The translations under genes and the position numbers were made by a program. This document shows positions 5,999-60,357 of a stretch of DNA of 64,000 bases, piece after piece; position 1 is the stretch's first letter, and each line of letters begins with the position of its first letter. Source of the stretch: Prochlorococcus sp. AG-418-G18 (GTDB lineage Bacteria > Cyanobacteriota > Cyanobacteriia > PCC-6307 > Cyanobiaceae); contig QCLX01000005.1 in NCBI GenBank assembly GCA_003214215.1, positions 1-64,000 on the forward strand, given 5' to 3'. Below the pieces are notes generated by a model that was not told the DNA's origin, searched no databases, and saw only the letters and a list, made by a program, of their open reading frames with translations.

Positions 5999-6114
5999 GG
6001 GTAAATTCTTTTATTTAATATTCTCCATAATCGGTCATTGGCGTCATTATTGTTACTCAATGACGGGGTGTGGTTCCCGAACAGGTCGTTATTTTTAAAA
6101 AAAAATTTCTAAAA

Positions 6115-9046: not shown

Positions 9047-9325
9047 ATGGACTCAAATAAACTAAAACTTAGATTAGACGATATTTCTGAAGTCAACCCT
9101 GCTTTAACTTGCTACCACAGAGATGATCCAGCTCCTGTTTTGCCGTTAAGAGATGAACCTGATCTACTATCTTGGCTTGAGACTACAGGAAGACTTGTTG
9201 CAGAAAATGAAGGAGATTCACAAGAAATTAGTACTATAGAAGAAGAAGAACTTTCAGCACTCATGGGAGAAAAAGAAGATTATAAGACTGAAGAAGACTC
9301 TTCAGAAGATGATTGGGAAGATTAA
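9047..9325 (+). CDS. DUF3134-like conserved cyanobacterial protein
   Basis: NPALTCYHRDDPAPVLPLRDEPDLLSWLETTGRLV resembles the DUF3134 family; acidic C-terminus. Confidence 0.75.
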   Translation: MDSNKLKLRLDDISEVNPALTCYHRDDPAPVLPLRDEPDLLSWLETTGRLVAENEGDSQEISTIEEEELSALMGEKEDYKTEEDSSEDDWED

Positions 9326-10384
9326 AAAGTTTAACTTTAAATCGTTATTAATATTAAATACTTTTGCTTTAATAGTAACCTCCTATTTTTTAATAATTTT
9401 ATTCTTATAGGAGTTTTTACATCATTTTTTTTTATTTCTTTATTCACAACAAAGAATGGTTTAAAAATAATCAGAAAATTAAATTTACTTCAAAATATTA
9501 GAACTGAAGGTCCTGCTAATCACTATAAAAAAAGGGATACCCCAACAATGGGTGGGATTTTTATGATGGTCCCTTTTTTAATTTTTCTTTTGATAATAAC
9601 AATAAATTTAGGTTCTTTAAAATTATTTCTACTATTAATGACTATTTCTGGTTTCTTTATTACAGGGTTTTTAGATGATTATTTAAGTATTAAAAACAAA
9701 AAAAATACAGGGTTAAAAACTAAAGAAAAATTTATTCTACAAAGTATCATATCAATAATTTTTATATCATTAGCCTATGAAAAAAATTTATTAAATCCGC
9801 TAATATCAGTCTCTGACTCTTGGGGAATAGATATGAATATTTTCATATTGCCAATTTCTTTTTTAGTACTTGTTGGCATCAGTAATTCAGTAAATTTAAC
9901 CGATGGACTAGATGGTTTAGCAGCTGGATGCAGCGGGATTGTTTTTTATGGATTAGGAACAGAAATATTAATGAAAGAACAGCAAGAACTTTTTGTTTTT
10001 AGTATCCTTTGTTATTCAATGTCTGGGATATGCTTAGGATTTCTCAAATACAATAGTTATCCTGCAAAAATATTTATGGGTGACACAGGATCTCTAAGTA
10101 TTGGAGCACTTCTGGGTTCTATAGCGTTATTAACTGATAGTGTCTTTACCTTATCTATTTTCTCAGGAATATTTATTATTGAATCATTATCAGTGATGAT
10201 TCAAGTAGGTTTTTTTAAAATTACAAAAAAATTATTTCATAATGGAAAACGAATATTTTTAATGGCACCACTACACCACCATTTTGAACTTCAAGGATTA
10301 AAGGAACAAAAAATAGTTGAAAATTTTTGGAAAATCAACATTTTACTTATAATTTTAGGTATAGTTTTAAAAATCAATCTTTAA
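9309..10384 (+). CDS. mraY: Phospho-N-acetylmuramoyl-pentapeptide-transferase, interrupted by an apparent -1 frameshift at 9386-9392
   Basis: Distal frame encodes RTEGPANHYKKRDTPTMGGIFM, NLTDGLDGLA, KIFMGDTGSLSIGALLG, APLHHHFELQG. Its N-terminus lies in a different frame from ATG 9309: MIGKIKKFNFKSLLILNTFALIVTSYFL, which then stops at TAG 9408-9410. A -1 shift joins them into about 358 aa. Confidence 0.85.
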
Positions 10385-16817: not shown

Positions 16818-16885
16818 GATAAATCTTCCATATAAAAAAAATAACTTCTTTTTAAAAAAAATAAAGGCTTTAAATATATAAAGTT

Positions 16886-18742
16886 ATGAATGAAGATTTT
16901 ACTGACTTTATTGAGGTATCTGGACTGTTGGAATATGATCCAGAAACAATATCTAAAATTTATAAAAAGAACCCAAAAAGACTTTTAAGAAGACTTTGGC
17001 AAACACTAATTCCTATTTTTACATATTTATTTTCTGTTGGTTGGGATAAATTAACTGGTAGATTAAAAAACGAAGAGAAAGCTAGATGTAGAGCAAAAGA
17101 ATTAACAAATTTATTAGTAGAACTTGGTCCAGCATTTGTTAAAGCAGGTCAAGCTTTATCCACAAGACCGGATATCATTCCAGGTGTTCTTCTTGAAGAA
17201 TTATCAGAATTACAAGATCAACTTCCAGGATTTGATGGAAATAAAGCTATGGAGTTAATAGAAGAAGATTTAGGATCCAAATTAGATGAAATTTTTTCAG
17301 AAATTGATAAAGAGCCAATTTCTGCAGCTTCTTTGGGACAAGTACACAAAGCCAAACTAAAGAATGAGGAAGTTGTTGCAGTTAAAGTGCAACGACCAGG
17401 ATTAAGAGAACAAATAACTTTGGATCTTTATATAGTTAGAAATATTGCTTATTGGCTAAAAAATAATATTGGACTTATAAGAAGCGATCTAGTGGCATTA
17501 ATTGATGAATTAGGCAAAAGAGTTTTTGAAGAGATGGATTATTTAAACGAAGCTAAAAATGCAGAAAAATTTAGAAGCATGCACAAACATAATCAAATGA
17601 TTGCTGTACCAAAAATATATAAAGAAATAACATCAAGAAGAGTTTTAACGATGGAATGGATCGATGGAACAAAATTAACCAACCTAGAGGATGTAAAAAA
17701 ATTAGGAATTGACCCTGATAAGATGATTGATATAGGAGTGCAGTGCAGTTTAGAACAACTTTTAGAACATGGTTTTTTTCATGCTGACCCACATCCAGGT
17801 AATTTATTAGCTTTGAAAGATGGCAGATTATGTTATCTAGACTTTGGAATGATGAGCGAAGTTTCAAGAGACTCTAGGTCTGGCTTAATTCAAGCAGTTG
17901 TACATTTAGTCAATAAAAACTTCGATAAGTTATCTCAAGATTTTGTAAAATTAGGTTTCTTATCCGAAGAAGTTAATCTAGAACCAATAGTTCCAGCATT
18001 TCAAGATGTTTTTATAAACGCTGTTGAACAAGGTGTCTCAAAAATGGACTTTAAAAGTGTCACAGACGATATGTCTGGTGTAATGTATAAATTCCCCTTC
18101 AGATTACCTCCTTATTATGCACTAATAATTAGATCATTACTGACATTAGAAGGGATTGCTTTAAGCGTGGACCCAAATTTTAAAATCTTGGGTGCAGCTT
18201 ATCCATATTTTGCGAGAAGACTAATGGAAGATCCTGATCCGCAATTAAGAGAAAGTTTGAAAGAAATGCTTTTTGATAATAAAAAATTCAAATGGGACCG
18301 TTTAGAAGATCTGCTGTCTAACGCTGCAAAGCAAACAAACCTTGATTTAGAAAAACTTTTAGATGAAGTAATAAATCTTCTTTTTTCTGCAAAAGGTGGA
18401 TTTCTTAGAAATGAAATTGTAGAAGGATTAACAAATCAAATAGATTTACTTGGTCTAAAAATATTAAAAAACTTAAATAGCTTCCTTCCACAATCAATTA
18501 AACTTAATATGACGGAAGAAAAAAATAACTTAAATGATCTTGTAATGTATGTAGAACCATTAAGAAACTTTATAGAAATTTTAGAAAAAATTCCTGGTTA
18601 TTCTATTGATATTTTTCTAAAAAGAGTTCCTCGACTTATAAATGAGCCTTACACAAAAGAAATGGGTATAAAAGTTGCAAAAAAAGTAACTGAGAAAGGC
18701 GTAGTTAGACTTGTAAAGATTGCAGCTGGTGCAAATATCTGA
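16886..18742 (+). CDS. ABC1/UbiB-family atypical kinase
   Basis: LGPAFVKAGQALSTRPDIIP, PISAASLGQVHKAKLKNEEVVAVKVQRPGL, GFFHADPHPGNLLAL. Confidence 0.93.
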   Translation: MNEDFTDFIEVSGLLEYDPETISKIYKKNPKRLLRRLWQTLIPIFTYLFSVGWDKLTGRLKNEEKARCRAKELTNLLVELGPAFVKAGQALSTRPDIIPGVLLEELSELQDQLPGFDGNKAMELIEEDLGSKLDEIFSEIDKEPISAASLGQVHKAKLKNEEVVAVKVQRPGLREQITLDLYIVRNIAYWLKNNIGLIRSDLVALIDELGKRVFEEMDYLNEAKNAEKFRSMHKHNQMIAVPKIYKEITSRRVLTMEWIDGTKLTNLEDVKKLGIDPDKMIDIGVQCSLEQLLEHGFFHADPHPGNLLALKDGRLCYLDFGMMSEVSRDSRSGLIQAVVHLVNKNFDKLSQDFVKLGFLSEEVNLEPIVPAFQDVFINAVEQGVSKMDFKSVTDDMSGVMYKFPFRLPPYYALIIRSLLTLEGIALSVDPNFKILGAAYPYFARRLMEDPDPQLRESLKEMLFDNKKFKWDRLEDLLSNAAKQTNLDLEKLLDEVINLLFSAKGGFLRNEIVEGLTNQIDLLGLKILKNLNSFLPQSIKLNMTEEKNNLNDLVMYVEPLRNFIEILEKIPGYSIDIFLKRVPRLINEPYTKEMGIKVAKKVTEKGVVRLVKIAAGANI

Positions 18743-55239: not shown

Positions 55240-56826
55240 ATGAGTCAAAAATCTTTAAAAAAAGAAAGAGATCCATCAATATTAATTTTAGATTTTGGAT
55301 CTCAATATTCCGAATTGATTGCAAGAAGAATCAGAGAAACTAATGTTTTTTCTCTTGTAGTAAGTAATTGTATTTCAATAGAGCATATTAATGATATTTG
55401 CCCTAAAGGTATAATTTTGAGTGGGGGCCCAAACTCTGTATATGATCAAAATGCGCCTAAATGTGATGAAAAAATTTTTGATTTAGGAATTCCTATTCTT
55501 GGGATATGCTATGGAATGCAATTGATGGTTAAAGAACTTGGAGGATCAGTCACTTCAGCAACTAAAAAAGCTGAATATGGGAGGGCACCAATAAATATAG
55601 ATTTTGAATCTACTCTCCTTTCTGGTGTGATTGATAAATCTATAATGTGGATGAGTCACGGTGATTCAATTAATTGTTTACCTGATGGATTTAATAGAGT
55701 TGCTCACACCGAGAACACTCTCCATGCAGCAATTTCGAATGATAGAAAAAGATTATTTGGCGTACAATTTCATCCTGAAGTTATTCATTCAGAGTTTGGG
55801 ATGACAGTAATTAAAAATTTTGTTTACAAGATTTCTAGTTGTGAAGCTGATTGGACAACAGAAACCTTTCTAGAGGAAACAATTCCTAGGATCAGAGAGC
55901 AAGTTGGTAATAAGAAAGTTTTGCTTGCATTGTCAGGAGGAGTTGATTCGTCAACGCTTGCTTTTTTACTCAATAAAGCAATTGGAAATCAGCTTACATG
56001 TATGTTTATAGACCAAGGTTTCATGAGAAAAGGTGAACCAGAATTTTTAATGAATTTTTTTGATAAGAAATTTCATATAAAGGTTGAATATATTAATGCG
56101 AGGGAAAGGTTTATCGCAAAATTAAGAGGGATTACTGATCCAGAACAAAAAAGGAAAATTATTGGTGCAGAATTTATAAGGGTATTTGAAGAAGAAAGTA
56201 ATAGATTGGGTCCTTTTCATTATTTAGCGCAAGGTACACTTTATCCTGATGTTATTGAAAGTGCTGGTACTAATATTGATCCCAATACAGGTGAGAGAAT
56301 AGCTGTCAAGATAAAAAGTCATCATAACGTCGGCGGATTACCAAAAGATTTACAATTTAAGTTAATTGAGCCATTAAGAAAACTTTTTAAAGATGAAGTC
56401 CGCAAATTAGGTTCTGCTTTAGGTTTGCCGGATGAAATTATAAAAAGGCATCCATTCCCAGGACCAGGGTTGGCAATAAGAATATTGGGAGAAGTGACTA
56501 ATGAAAAACTTGATTGTTTAAGAGATGCAGATTGGATCGTGAGAGATGAAATTAAAAAAGCAGGTCTTTACGATGATATTTGGCAAGCTTTCGCAGTATT
56601 GTTACCTGTTAAAACTGTAGGAGTTATGGGTGATAAAAGGACTTATTCATGGCCAATCGTTTTACGTTGTGTATCTAGTGAAGATGGTATGACTGCAGAC
56701 TGGTCAAAAATTTCTTTTAAGATTTTAGAGAGAATATCTAATAGAATTGTTAATGAAGTAGTATCAGTTAATAGAGTTGTTTATGATATAACTAGCAAAC
56801 CTCCTGGAACTATCGAGTGGGAATAA
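55240..56826 (+). CDS. guaA: GMP synthase (glutamine-hydrolysing)
   Basis: [52 protein letters not shown]-terminal [14 protein letters not shown]. Confidence 0.98.
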
Positions 56827-56864
56827 TAAAAGGGGTATAAAGCCATTCATAGTCTAAAAAAGTC

Positions 56865-56912
56865 GGTTACACGTGAGGGTAAAATTTCATCTCTATAGAA
56901 AAATCGTATAAA
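56865..56912. repeat. Leader repeat copy A: GGTTACACGTGAGGGTAAAAT...GTATAAA
   Basis: ggttacacgtgagggtaaaatttcatctctatagaaaaatcgtataaa; first 21 nt identical to copy B at 57365. Confidence 0.9.
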
Positions 56913-56967
56913 AAGAAATTTCTTAGATTCTTGATGTAATATTAAAGATGTATTTGGAAATTTCTTC

Positions 56968-57282
56968 ATGAAAATATCACAGTTTTTTGTTTCAGGTTTT
57001 TTAATTGCTGGTTCTTTAGTTAGTGCTACTCCTTCTTTTGCATCTTGTTATGGCAGTGGATATGCTCGTTATTGCGATGGGATAGGAGGTCCTGGTGCAA
57101 CATATTCACCAAGAGGTGACTATGGAAGTACTAATTACTACAATCGAAATAGTGGATATTCAAGGACTGAAACTTATACACCGCAAAGAAACGATACTTA
57201 TTACAATGGCGGCGGATATAATTCAAGACCTCGTTCGCGTAAAGGATATGGTTACTCCTCAGGGGATTATTTCGGTTTTTAA
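56968..57282 (+). CDS. Exported Gly/Tyr/Ser-rich small protein
   Basis: Signal peptide MKISQFFVSGFLIAGSLVSATPSFAS followed by low-complexity GYGYSSGDYFGF-type sequence. Confidence 0.7.
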   Translation: MKISQFFVSGFLIAGSLVSATPSFASCYGSGYARYCDGIGGPGATYSPRGDYGSTNYYNRNSGYSRTETYTPQRNDTYYNGGGYNSRPRSRKGYGYSSGDYFGF

Positions 57283-57352
57283 CAACGTAAATATTATTTC
57301 TCTACAAAAATGTATTAAACTGCCAATATCCTTCAGATTTCCAGCTATGAAT

Positions 57353-57412
57353 GGGTTACACGTGGGTTACACGTGAGGGTAAAATCTTATCTCAACAGAG
57401 AAATTGTATAAA
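57353..57412. repeat. Leader repeat copy B, with tandem GGGTTACACGTG preceding it
   Basis: gggttacacgtgggttacacgtgagggtaaaatcttatctcaacagagaaattgtataaa; two 11-nt spaced copies of GGTTACACGTG. Confidence 0.9.
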
Positions 57413-57472
57413 TTTATTTCTCTACATTTGTTGTATTAATGTTAATGTCTAGGGTTTAGTTGCTAATAATCT

Positions 57473-57580
57473 ATGAACGACTTCTCTACAAAGTCTTCTT
57501 ATCCTGAGGATTTAAAAAGAAAAAAACCTGCTCGAAAGCAGGTCTTTTTGAAGATCAATCGCAAGTGTTTCCTTTTCTAG
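57473..57580 (+). CDS. Possible small ORF (35 aa) downstream of leader repeat copy B
   Basis: atgaacgacttctct...tag encodes MNDFSTKSSYPEDLKRKKPARKQVFLKINRKCFLF. It overlaps a terminator-like hairpin, so coding status is doubtful. Confidence 0.2.
   Translation: MNDFSTKSSYPEDLKRKKPARKQVFLKINRKCFLF
57526..57549. terminator. Rho-independent terminator, T-runs on both strands
   Basis: Stem ACCTGC / GCAGGT with loop TCGAAA, followed by CTTTTT on +; preceded by AAAAAA, giving a T-run on the minus strand. Confidence 0.75.
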
Positions 57581-57795
57581 AAAATATCGACTCTTCTTCT
57601 TTGATGAAGTGTAGGGATATAAAACCTCTACCGCTAATTTTTTTACCTAAGATATTTTTTGATTTGAGTGATATCTCAATTTCGGTTTCAACGGTTTGTA
57701 GATTTATACTATCTATTTTTCTATATATTCTATAATTTATTTTTAGTGTTTTCTAAAAACAAAGAATAACTAAGAATCTCCGCAGTTCATGATTT

Positions 57796-59832
57796 TTATT
57801 TATCGCTAATGCCTATTTTATTTAAAACCCTTTTCCAGTATTCTCTGAGAATATCTTTGTTATTCTCAGTAAAATGTGGACTTGAATCGGAATACAGGAG
57901 TTTACCGTTTTTATCGACAGTTCTGCATTTTGCTCCATTGCAGAGTTCATCATGGGGGTCGACGTAGATAGTGTTGCTGGATGATTTTGCGATTTCCAAG
58001 AAAACATTATTCATTTCTTTTCGATCTTCAATGCTAATGGATCTTTTAGTCTCGCATAGATCGATTCTGCCTATTCTGATAATATTTTGTAGATAATTGA
58101 TGTTGTCTGGGCATACTTTTGGTATGTCCCCTATAAGCACAAGATAGGCACCCTTTTCCTCGATGATTTGCAAAATATCAAGTAACCTCTTCCTAAGAAT
58201 ATTTGTTCTTTGAATATTTTGTTTCCTTGCTACTCCTGTATATTGACCAACACTAAAACGATCCCTACTGATACTAATGAATACGTAATCTTTATCACTG
58301 AGGTTGTTTCGGAAATAATCTTTGTAAGCATTTCCAGCATTATTGATGCAAATTTTTTGAGAAGAGCAACTATCTTTCCCTAGTAAATAAAAAAGAAAAC
58401 CATACTCAATAAGAGTTCCTAGATTGTATTCAGAGTTAGTCTGATGCAAGGCAGACTGTATGCTCCAATGATGATTTGCTGCATGACTATCGCCAATTAG
58501 AAAGATTTTCCTTGAATAATCATTATTCTCATGAGTGGAAAGACAGTCTTTGAATGCCGTCTCAATGTTGCTTGGATGATGGCAATAAAAATCTTTATGA
58601 GGTATGCCAGTTCCACCTGTAAAAGCATATGGATATAATTTTTTGCCGATAGATTCTAGAAATTGCTTCGCTGATGTTTTAGGAATTGAGACAATCGATA
58701 AAGCAGTAATACTAAGTGAGACCACAGCAAAGACTAATGTCTTCCATCGTCTCTCAAACCATATTTGCTTACGAAGTGGCGTTTCGATATATCGATATGA
58801 AGCAATTGCAAGACCAAACATCAGAGCAATTTGGAAAGGCACTGACCACCAATGAATTCCAATTGTCCAACGACTAATTGAAATGATACCCCAGTGCCAT
58901 AAATAGAGAGAATAAGAGATGAGACCTATATAAACGATATTAGGATTAGTAAAAAATATGAATGCTTTTGTTTGTTTTTTGAAGGAGGCGATAAGAACAG
59001 AAGACAGAGCAACTATTGCAATTGTTGATGCTGATGCCCATAATATCGGCAAATACATCACCCCGACAATCAAAGTTAGAACTAGAAGAGATGGCACCTT
59101 CTCAAGGAATTGTTTTAGGTATTTTTTTTTCTGTAATCCAAGAAAGATCAAACAACCTGTTGCCATCTCCCAAAACCTTGACGGCATTAAAAAATATGCT
59201 GCTGGTTGGTTTGTTGGATACAGATAGATAAATCCGATTAATGATCCAATAGTCATTGCACCAACCGCTAGAAACAAATTACGAGCACCATTCTTCGTCT
59301 GTTTTCCAAACCCAGAAAACCAAATCAGAAAAGGAAAAAGGATGTAGAACTGCTCTTCAATACCAAGCGACCAAGTATGTGTGAATACATTGAGTTCTGT
59401 TGATTGTGCAAAGTAGTCCGTTGAATAATTGAGGAGGTATAGATTAGATAATCCGAACAAGGATGTTAGACCAGTCAATAAAGATGTACCTGGGTATGGA
59501 TTGAACAAGCAGATGGCAATACTTGTGATGAGTACAAAAACTGATAGTGCTGGAACTAATCGCTTTACCCTGCGTTCGTAAAATCCGCTGATGAAGTCCT
59601 TGAAGTTTTTACAGGGTCTTTGATAAAGAGATGATGTTATGACGAATCCTGAGATAACAAAAAAGATATCAACGCCAAGATATCCACCTGGCAGTATTTC
59701 CTTGTTGAAGTGATTGATGATGACAGCAATGACTGCAAATGCCCGCAGACCATCAATTTCTGGTCGGTAACGACTATCTTTTGACGAAATATTTTTTGAA
59801 GAAAAATCATTCATATATGCCATCCATTGCAC
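57796..59832 (-). CDS. OafA/YrhL-type acyltransferase 3 with C-terminal SGNH domain
   Basis: YRPEIDGLRAFAVIAVIINHFNKEILPGGYLGVDIFFVISGFVITS; FTHTWSLGIEEQFYILFPFLIW; SGNH motif KIFLIGDSHAANHHW. Confidence 0.95.
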   Translation of the reverse strand: MQWMAYMNDFSSKNISSKDSRYRPEIDGLRAFAVIAVIINHFNKEILPGGYLGVDIFFVISGFVITSSLYQRPCKNFKDFISGFYERRVKRLVPALSVFVLITSIAICLFNPYPGTSLLTGLTSLFGLSNLYLLNYSTDYFAQSTELNVFTHTWSLGIEEQFYILFPFLIWFSGFGKQTKNGARNLFLAVGAMTIGSLIGFIYLYPTNQPAAYFLMPSRFWEMATGCLIFLGLQKKKYLKQFLEKVPSLLVLTLIVGVMYLPILWASASTIAIVALSSVLIASFKKQTKAFIFFTNPNIVYIGLISYSLYLWHWGIISISRWTIGIHWWSVPFQIALMFGLAIASYRYIETPLRKQIWFERRWKTLVFAVVSLSITALSIVSIPKTSAKQFLESIGKKLYPYAFTGGTGIPHKDFYCHHPSNIETAFKDCLSTHENNDYSRKIFLIGDSHAANHHWSIQSALHQTNSEYNLGTLIEYGFLFYLLGKDSCSSQKICINNAGNAYKDYFRNNLSDKDYVFISISRDRFSVGQYTGVARKQNIQRTNILRKRLLDILQIIEEKGAYLVLIGDIPKVCPDNINYLQNIIRIGRIDLCETKRSISIEDRKEMNNVFLEIAKSSSNTIYVDPHDELCNGAKCRTVDKNGKLLYSDSSPHFTENNKDILREYWKRVLNKIGISDK

Positions 59833-59965
59833 TTCCCGTAAAAATAACCTCTTCTTTGCTCATATTTCTAATTTAAATTTGGATAGAAATAGATTAGTAA
59901 TATATATGATAACTCTATGAAAAACTCATATATTTGTTTATTTCTTGAGACGCTTCGCAGTAATT

Positions 59966-59991
59966 GGGTTACACGTGGAATATTCGTAACC
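59966..59991. repeat. Third site of the GGGTTACACGTGG element, upstream of the acyltransferase gene
   Basis: gggttacacgtgg at 59966-59978, identical over 13 nt to 57353-57365; followed by GTAACC at 59986-59991, forming GGTTAC-N13-GTAACC. Confidence 0.85.
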
Positions 59992-60173
59992 TATTTGCGA
60001 TGCCTTTCAACTTTTATTTTCTTTTGAGACTTTTTGTGATTTCTAAAACCTTTCATAAAAAGTCTTTATAGGTTAATTATATATATTTTTGAATATATGG
60101 AATCTAACTTGCTTGTAATTCTGCATTAAATCTCTAAAATTAGTTCGTAAGATTACACCTTAAAGTATAAAGA

Positions 60174-60305
60174 ATGGTTAATTGTGATTTCTATCAATCT
60201 TATATGGAACCAGCCTTCTTAACTAATTCTTTATATCAATGGCATTCAAGGTGTAAAAATTTTGTGGAATTATTTAATAGAAGTAATTTACCAAATTTTA
60301 AATAA
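60174..60305 (+). CDS. Possible small ORF (43 aa)
   Basis: ATG...TAA encoding MVNCDFYQSYMEPAFLTNSLYQWHSRCKNFVELFNRSNLPNFK. Confidence 0.35.
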   Translation: MVNCDFYQSYMEPAFLTNSLYQWHSRCKNFVELFNRSNLPNFK

Positions 60306-60357
60306 TTTAGCGGTTTAATTGTTGCAGGAAATTTCTTTAAATTAGATTTAAAAAGTA

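Follow-up and report, generated by a model that had tools for sequence, protein, structure and literature searches.

A missing T in a homopolymer near the start of mraY, probably an error in the record, splits the gene in a draft Prochlorococcus genome

In the 64,000-nucleotide stretch of Prochlorococcus DNA analysed here (the window), mraY is divided between two reading frames at a run of T residues, and the record most probably lacks one base of that homopolymer through an error of amplification, sequencing or assembly. Alignment shows that one base is missing from the deposited sequence relative to all close relatives, with the rest of mraY intact and conserved; we infer that the base is absent from the record only and present in the cell. 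MraY is essential in walled bacteria. The proposed course of events would be simple: from an ordinary Prochlorococcus mraY, the deposited consensus would have lost one T of a T7 run in codons 26-28 (TAT TTT TTT), the loss arising during amplification, sequencing or assembly of a partial genome, and the cell itself would keep an intact 358-codon mraY, with no recoding. We favor this reading because every comparable relative has an unbroken mraY frame at the site. We rank a recent, real deletion below it, and recoding lower still. The features on which the argument turns are as follows.

9047..9325, plus strand: DUF3134 gene upstream of mraY, its 3′ end overlapping the start of mraY by 17 bases
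9309..9410, plus strand: mraY 5′ fragment with the normal ATG; codons 1-28 align with the 358-codon relatives, then out of frame to TAG
9341..10384, plus strand: main mraY frame, 347 open codons and a stop; homology to intact MraY starts at about 9386
9386..9391, plus strand: T6 run, the apparent deletion site; 51 of the 92 distinct relatives have T7 (TAT TTT TTT), and every close relative has one base more than the window
9386..9392, plus strand: T_TTT_TTA heptamer in the phase for -1 slippage, an automatic by-product of the lost T

The open reading frame that begins at ATG 9309 translates as 33 codons (MIGKIKKFNFKSLLILNTFALIVTSYFLIILFL) and stops at TAG 9408-9410, while the main frame is the -1 frame, which opens past TAA 9338-9340, runs for 347 codons and ends at TAA 10382-10384. 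The T6 run sits where the frames switch, and a -1 shift at that point fuses the two into a protein of 358 amino acids, the same length as in intact relatives. The layout of the two frames and the seamless product of about 358 amino acids, both proposed in the preliminary description of this DNA, are thus confirmed by translation. The identity of the long frame is supported by the ncbifam model TIGR00445 (mraY), with 289 bits on 9341-10381 against a cut-off of 192, and by MraY_sig1, with 20.8 on the main frame against a cut-off of 20.1. The earliest ATG, GTG or TTG in the long frame is ATG 9548, and an internal start there is unlikely to give a functional MraY, as the product would lack 80 N-terminal residues and with them the MraY_sig1 stretch. 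The assembly, which is 66% complete and totals 1.15 Mb over 40 contigs, contains 1 Glycos_transf_4 gene, which is the split mraY, and no second mraY copy was found in it, in keeping with what had been noted from the window. The overlap between the DUF3134 gene and mraY (9309-9325) is also present in most relatives, so the 2 genes are probably translationally coupled.

A genus-wide search of 266 genomes, 242 of them matching, together with a scan of the genome contigs, gave a comparison set of 92 distinct Prochlorococcus mraY genes besides that of the window, complete isolate genomes included. Eighty-nine open with ATG and stay in a single frame for 358 codons, in another the start lies one codon earlier, and 2 carry a different indel farther upstream; the deletion seen in the window occurs in none of the 92. 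Where codons 26-28 do not read TAT TTT TTT, they differ by substitutions that keep the frame, so that T7 or an equivalent intact frame is present in all close relatives, as expected for a homopolymer error. Each of the 12 nearest genes (91-93% nucleotide identity) needs exactly one gap in the window, and an alignment of the 8 nearest places that single gap at the T run; the site reads TCCTATTTTTTTAATAATTTTATTCTTATA in relative L098 versus TCCTATTTTTTAATAATTTTATTCTTATA in the window. As a member of the Prochlorococcus MraY family (TIGR00445), the product has 91-94% protein identity to its nearest relatives over 278 residues, but its gene lacks one T in codons 26-28. No further codon shift or stop was found in the remaining 330 codons, and a search of viral contigs for the exact T6 sequence gave no match. 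Because the substitutions private to this mraY number only 1 synonymous and 2 nonsynonymous, the gene shows no sign of decay, consistent with an intact cellular copy or with a deletion so recent as to be of no consequence. The preliminary description had put error first among the alternatives and held that close relatives with T7 in one continuous frame would point to it. The first statement is supported and the second is nearly borne out: most relatives do have T7 in one frame, and the -1 offset at T TTT TTA, whose conservation among relatives it had proposed to check, is shared by none.

The same lack of decay would suit a real and very recent one-base deletion of the T7 run, carried by the sorted cell or by the lineage it belongs to, by which MraY would be inactivated or strongly lowered, in a lethal or transient mutant or by phase variation, with spontaneous slippage making at most a little of the enzyme. 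Natural indels typically arise in homopolymers. In E. coli, bypass at repeats of 3-8 bases was quantified in a laboratory system (PMC3812077). Still, we consider such a deletion unlikely: the gene is essential and without a second copy found in the assembly, the deletion is absent from all 92 relatives, and we know of no core cell-wall enzyme that undergoes phase variation.

How often the assembly breaks frames elsewhere was gauged from the window and 120 kb of two other contigs (C1 and C2), compared with orthologous stretches of complete genomes, a sample of 153 conserved genes, 152 kb of coding sequence and about 683 A/T runs of at least 6 bases. The only genuine coding split among the 153 genes is that in mraY. 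All further flagged splits in the sample are 5′ or intergenic and were rejected as signs of error: that at dnaK/aroE (about 6000-6110) is an indel in a divergent intergenic region; that at recN and an ABC1-type kinase (about 16835-17002) appears against one relative only, upstream of the recN start, in a divergent gap; and 2 others, in contigs C1 and C2, lie upstream of starts. One frame-breaking indel in about 150 kb of coding sequence is plausible as residual consensus error and is also compatible with one real recent mutation. From its completeness, its contig sizes and its relatives, the record appears to be a single-amplified genome. On sequence, the mraY case would be classed with single-base homopolymer indels in the consensus of a draft genome, here probably from a single cell: a T run is short by one base and a single gene is hit, with its remainder and its neighbors intact. 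Two observations speak against an error in the record. In a benchmark of whole-genome amplification, P. marinus single-cell assemblies tended toward the fewest indels (PMC5519541), and 2 related genomes have indels near the N-terminus of mraY that seem to be inherited, so that a real indel in the window is conceivable. Apart from mraY, the 3.5 kb at 56824-60354 of the window have no homologous open reading frame in the syntenic regions of the 5 relatives compared, and are possibly variable gene content.

The heptamer T_TTT_TTA lies in the zero-frame phase used for -1 slippage and corresponds to U_UUU_UUA, the HIV-type slippery sequence (PMC5009743). In a recoding scenario T6 would be real, and the seamless 358-residue MraY would come from ribosomes that shift to the -1 frame at U_UUU_UUA, or from slippage along the T run during transcription. 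We regard this as very unlikely. Removal of any single T from TAT TTT TTT AAT gives TAT TTT TTA ATA, which is T_TTT_TTA in the zero-frame phase; since the loss of one T from T7 creates the heptamer automatically, its presence at the frame switch is not independent evidence. The preliminary description was correct in placing the switch exactly on a properly phased heptamer, but that coincidence carries no weight of its own. Moreover, across the 152 kb of conserved coding sequence that is intact in this assembly, 39 genes contain 50 in-frame T_TTT_TTA between them, two of which lie further along in mraY itself (9574 and 9859). Each of the 50 has to be translated in the zero frame, so T_TTT_TTA alone cannot be very shifty here. 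No stable RNA structure was found in the 40-100 nt downstream of the heptamer (z values of -0.58, -0.22, -0.53 and -0.71, hence -0.2 to -0.7), with pseudoknots outside the model.

What is known of recoding elsewhere points the same way. Compared with programmed -1 frameshifting (A_AAA_AAG in dnaX, U_UUU_UUA in HIV), the mraY heptamer is correctly phased, but no stimulator was found, the offset is conserved in no relative, and the deletion itself produces the heptamer. A review rates U_UUU_UUA as far less shift-prone than A_AAA_AAG in E. coli (PMC5009743). A further parallel is offered by Buchnera and Blochmannia, in which slippage at homopolymers provides rescue (work cited in PMC5009743); there too the genome is reduced and AT-rich, and the indel falls in a homopolymer of a cell-wall gene. 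However, the documented endosymbiont cases depend on poly(A) runs that are long, slippage in bacteria is described for runs of about 9 (PMC5009743), and the mraY run is an unconserved T6. A literature search on mraY frameshifts and on recoding in Prochlorococcus found nothing on point. The suggestion of recoding made in the preliminary description is, on these grounds, unsupported.

A real T6 could also be accommodated if the main frame were translated from a non-AUG start (ATC or ATT, at 9341-9355), so that IVINIKYFCFNSNLLF would replace the first 27 residues. The frame is open from 9341, with ATC or ATT at codons 1, 3 and 5, and the 2 related genomes mentioned above also have no in-frame AUG, GUG or UUG near the mraY start, with an ATT just past the upstream stop. 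We nevertheless give this the least credence of all the readings considered, and very little in absolute terms: IVINIKYFCFNSNLLF shows no homology to the N-terminus that the relatives conserve, no ribosome-binding site is placed for it, and in the parallel genomes the indel lies some 60 bases upstream, with the conserved sequence kept from FKSLL onward.

Those 2 genomes, G046 and G099, are sisters (clade support 0.85 in mraY) and present a case of their own. Their mraY genes, on the reverse strand of both loci (L112, G099:C7:47000-50500; L113, G046:C142:4200-7500), have a common 1-nt deletion near codon 7, and the usual ATG yields only a 13-codon peptide. The mraY frame, of 352 codons, begins directly past the stop of the upstream DUF3134 gene and has no ATG, GTG or TTG until codon 36 (TTG), with an ATT at the second codon after the stop. 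The bases next to the deletion differ between the two genomes, and the shared deletion therefore looks like an inherited change rather than an error. This suggests an inherited non-AUG (AUU) start or -1 slippage in mraY; a near-normal N-terminus would be restored by initiation at AUU as well as by a -1 slip along the A run, the latter giving MIGKIKKITFKSLL. We find this case more interesting than the split mraY of the window.

For the window itself, an error in the record would have a consequence for annotation only, in that this genome's mraY would be listed as truncated or as a pseudogene. Were T6 real, with MraY made solely via -1 slippage, an essential enzyme of a free-living bacterium would rely on low-level recoding, and an essential gene of a streamlined, free-living cyanobacterium would need the kind of slippage described mainly in endosymbionts and mobile elements.
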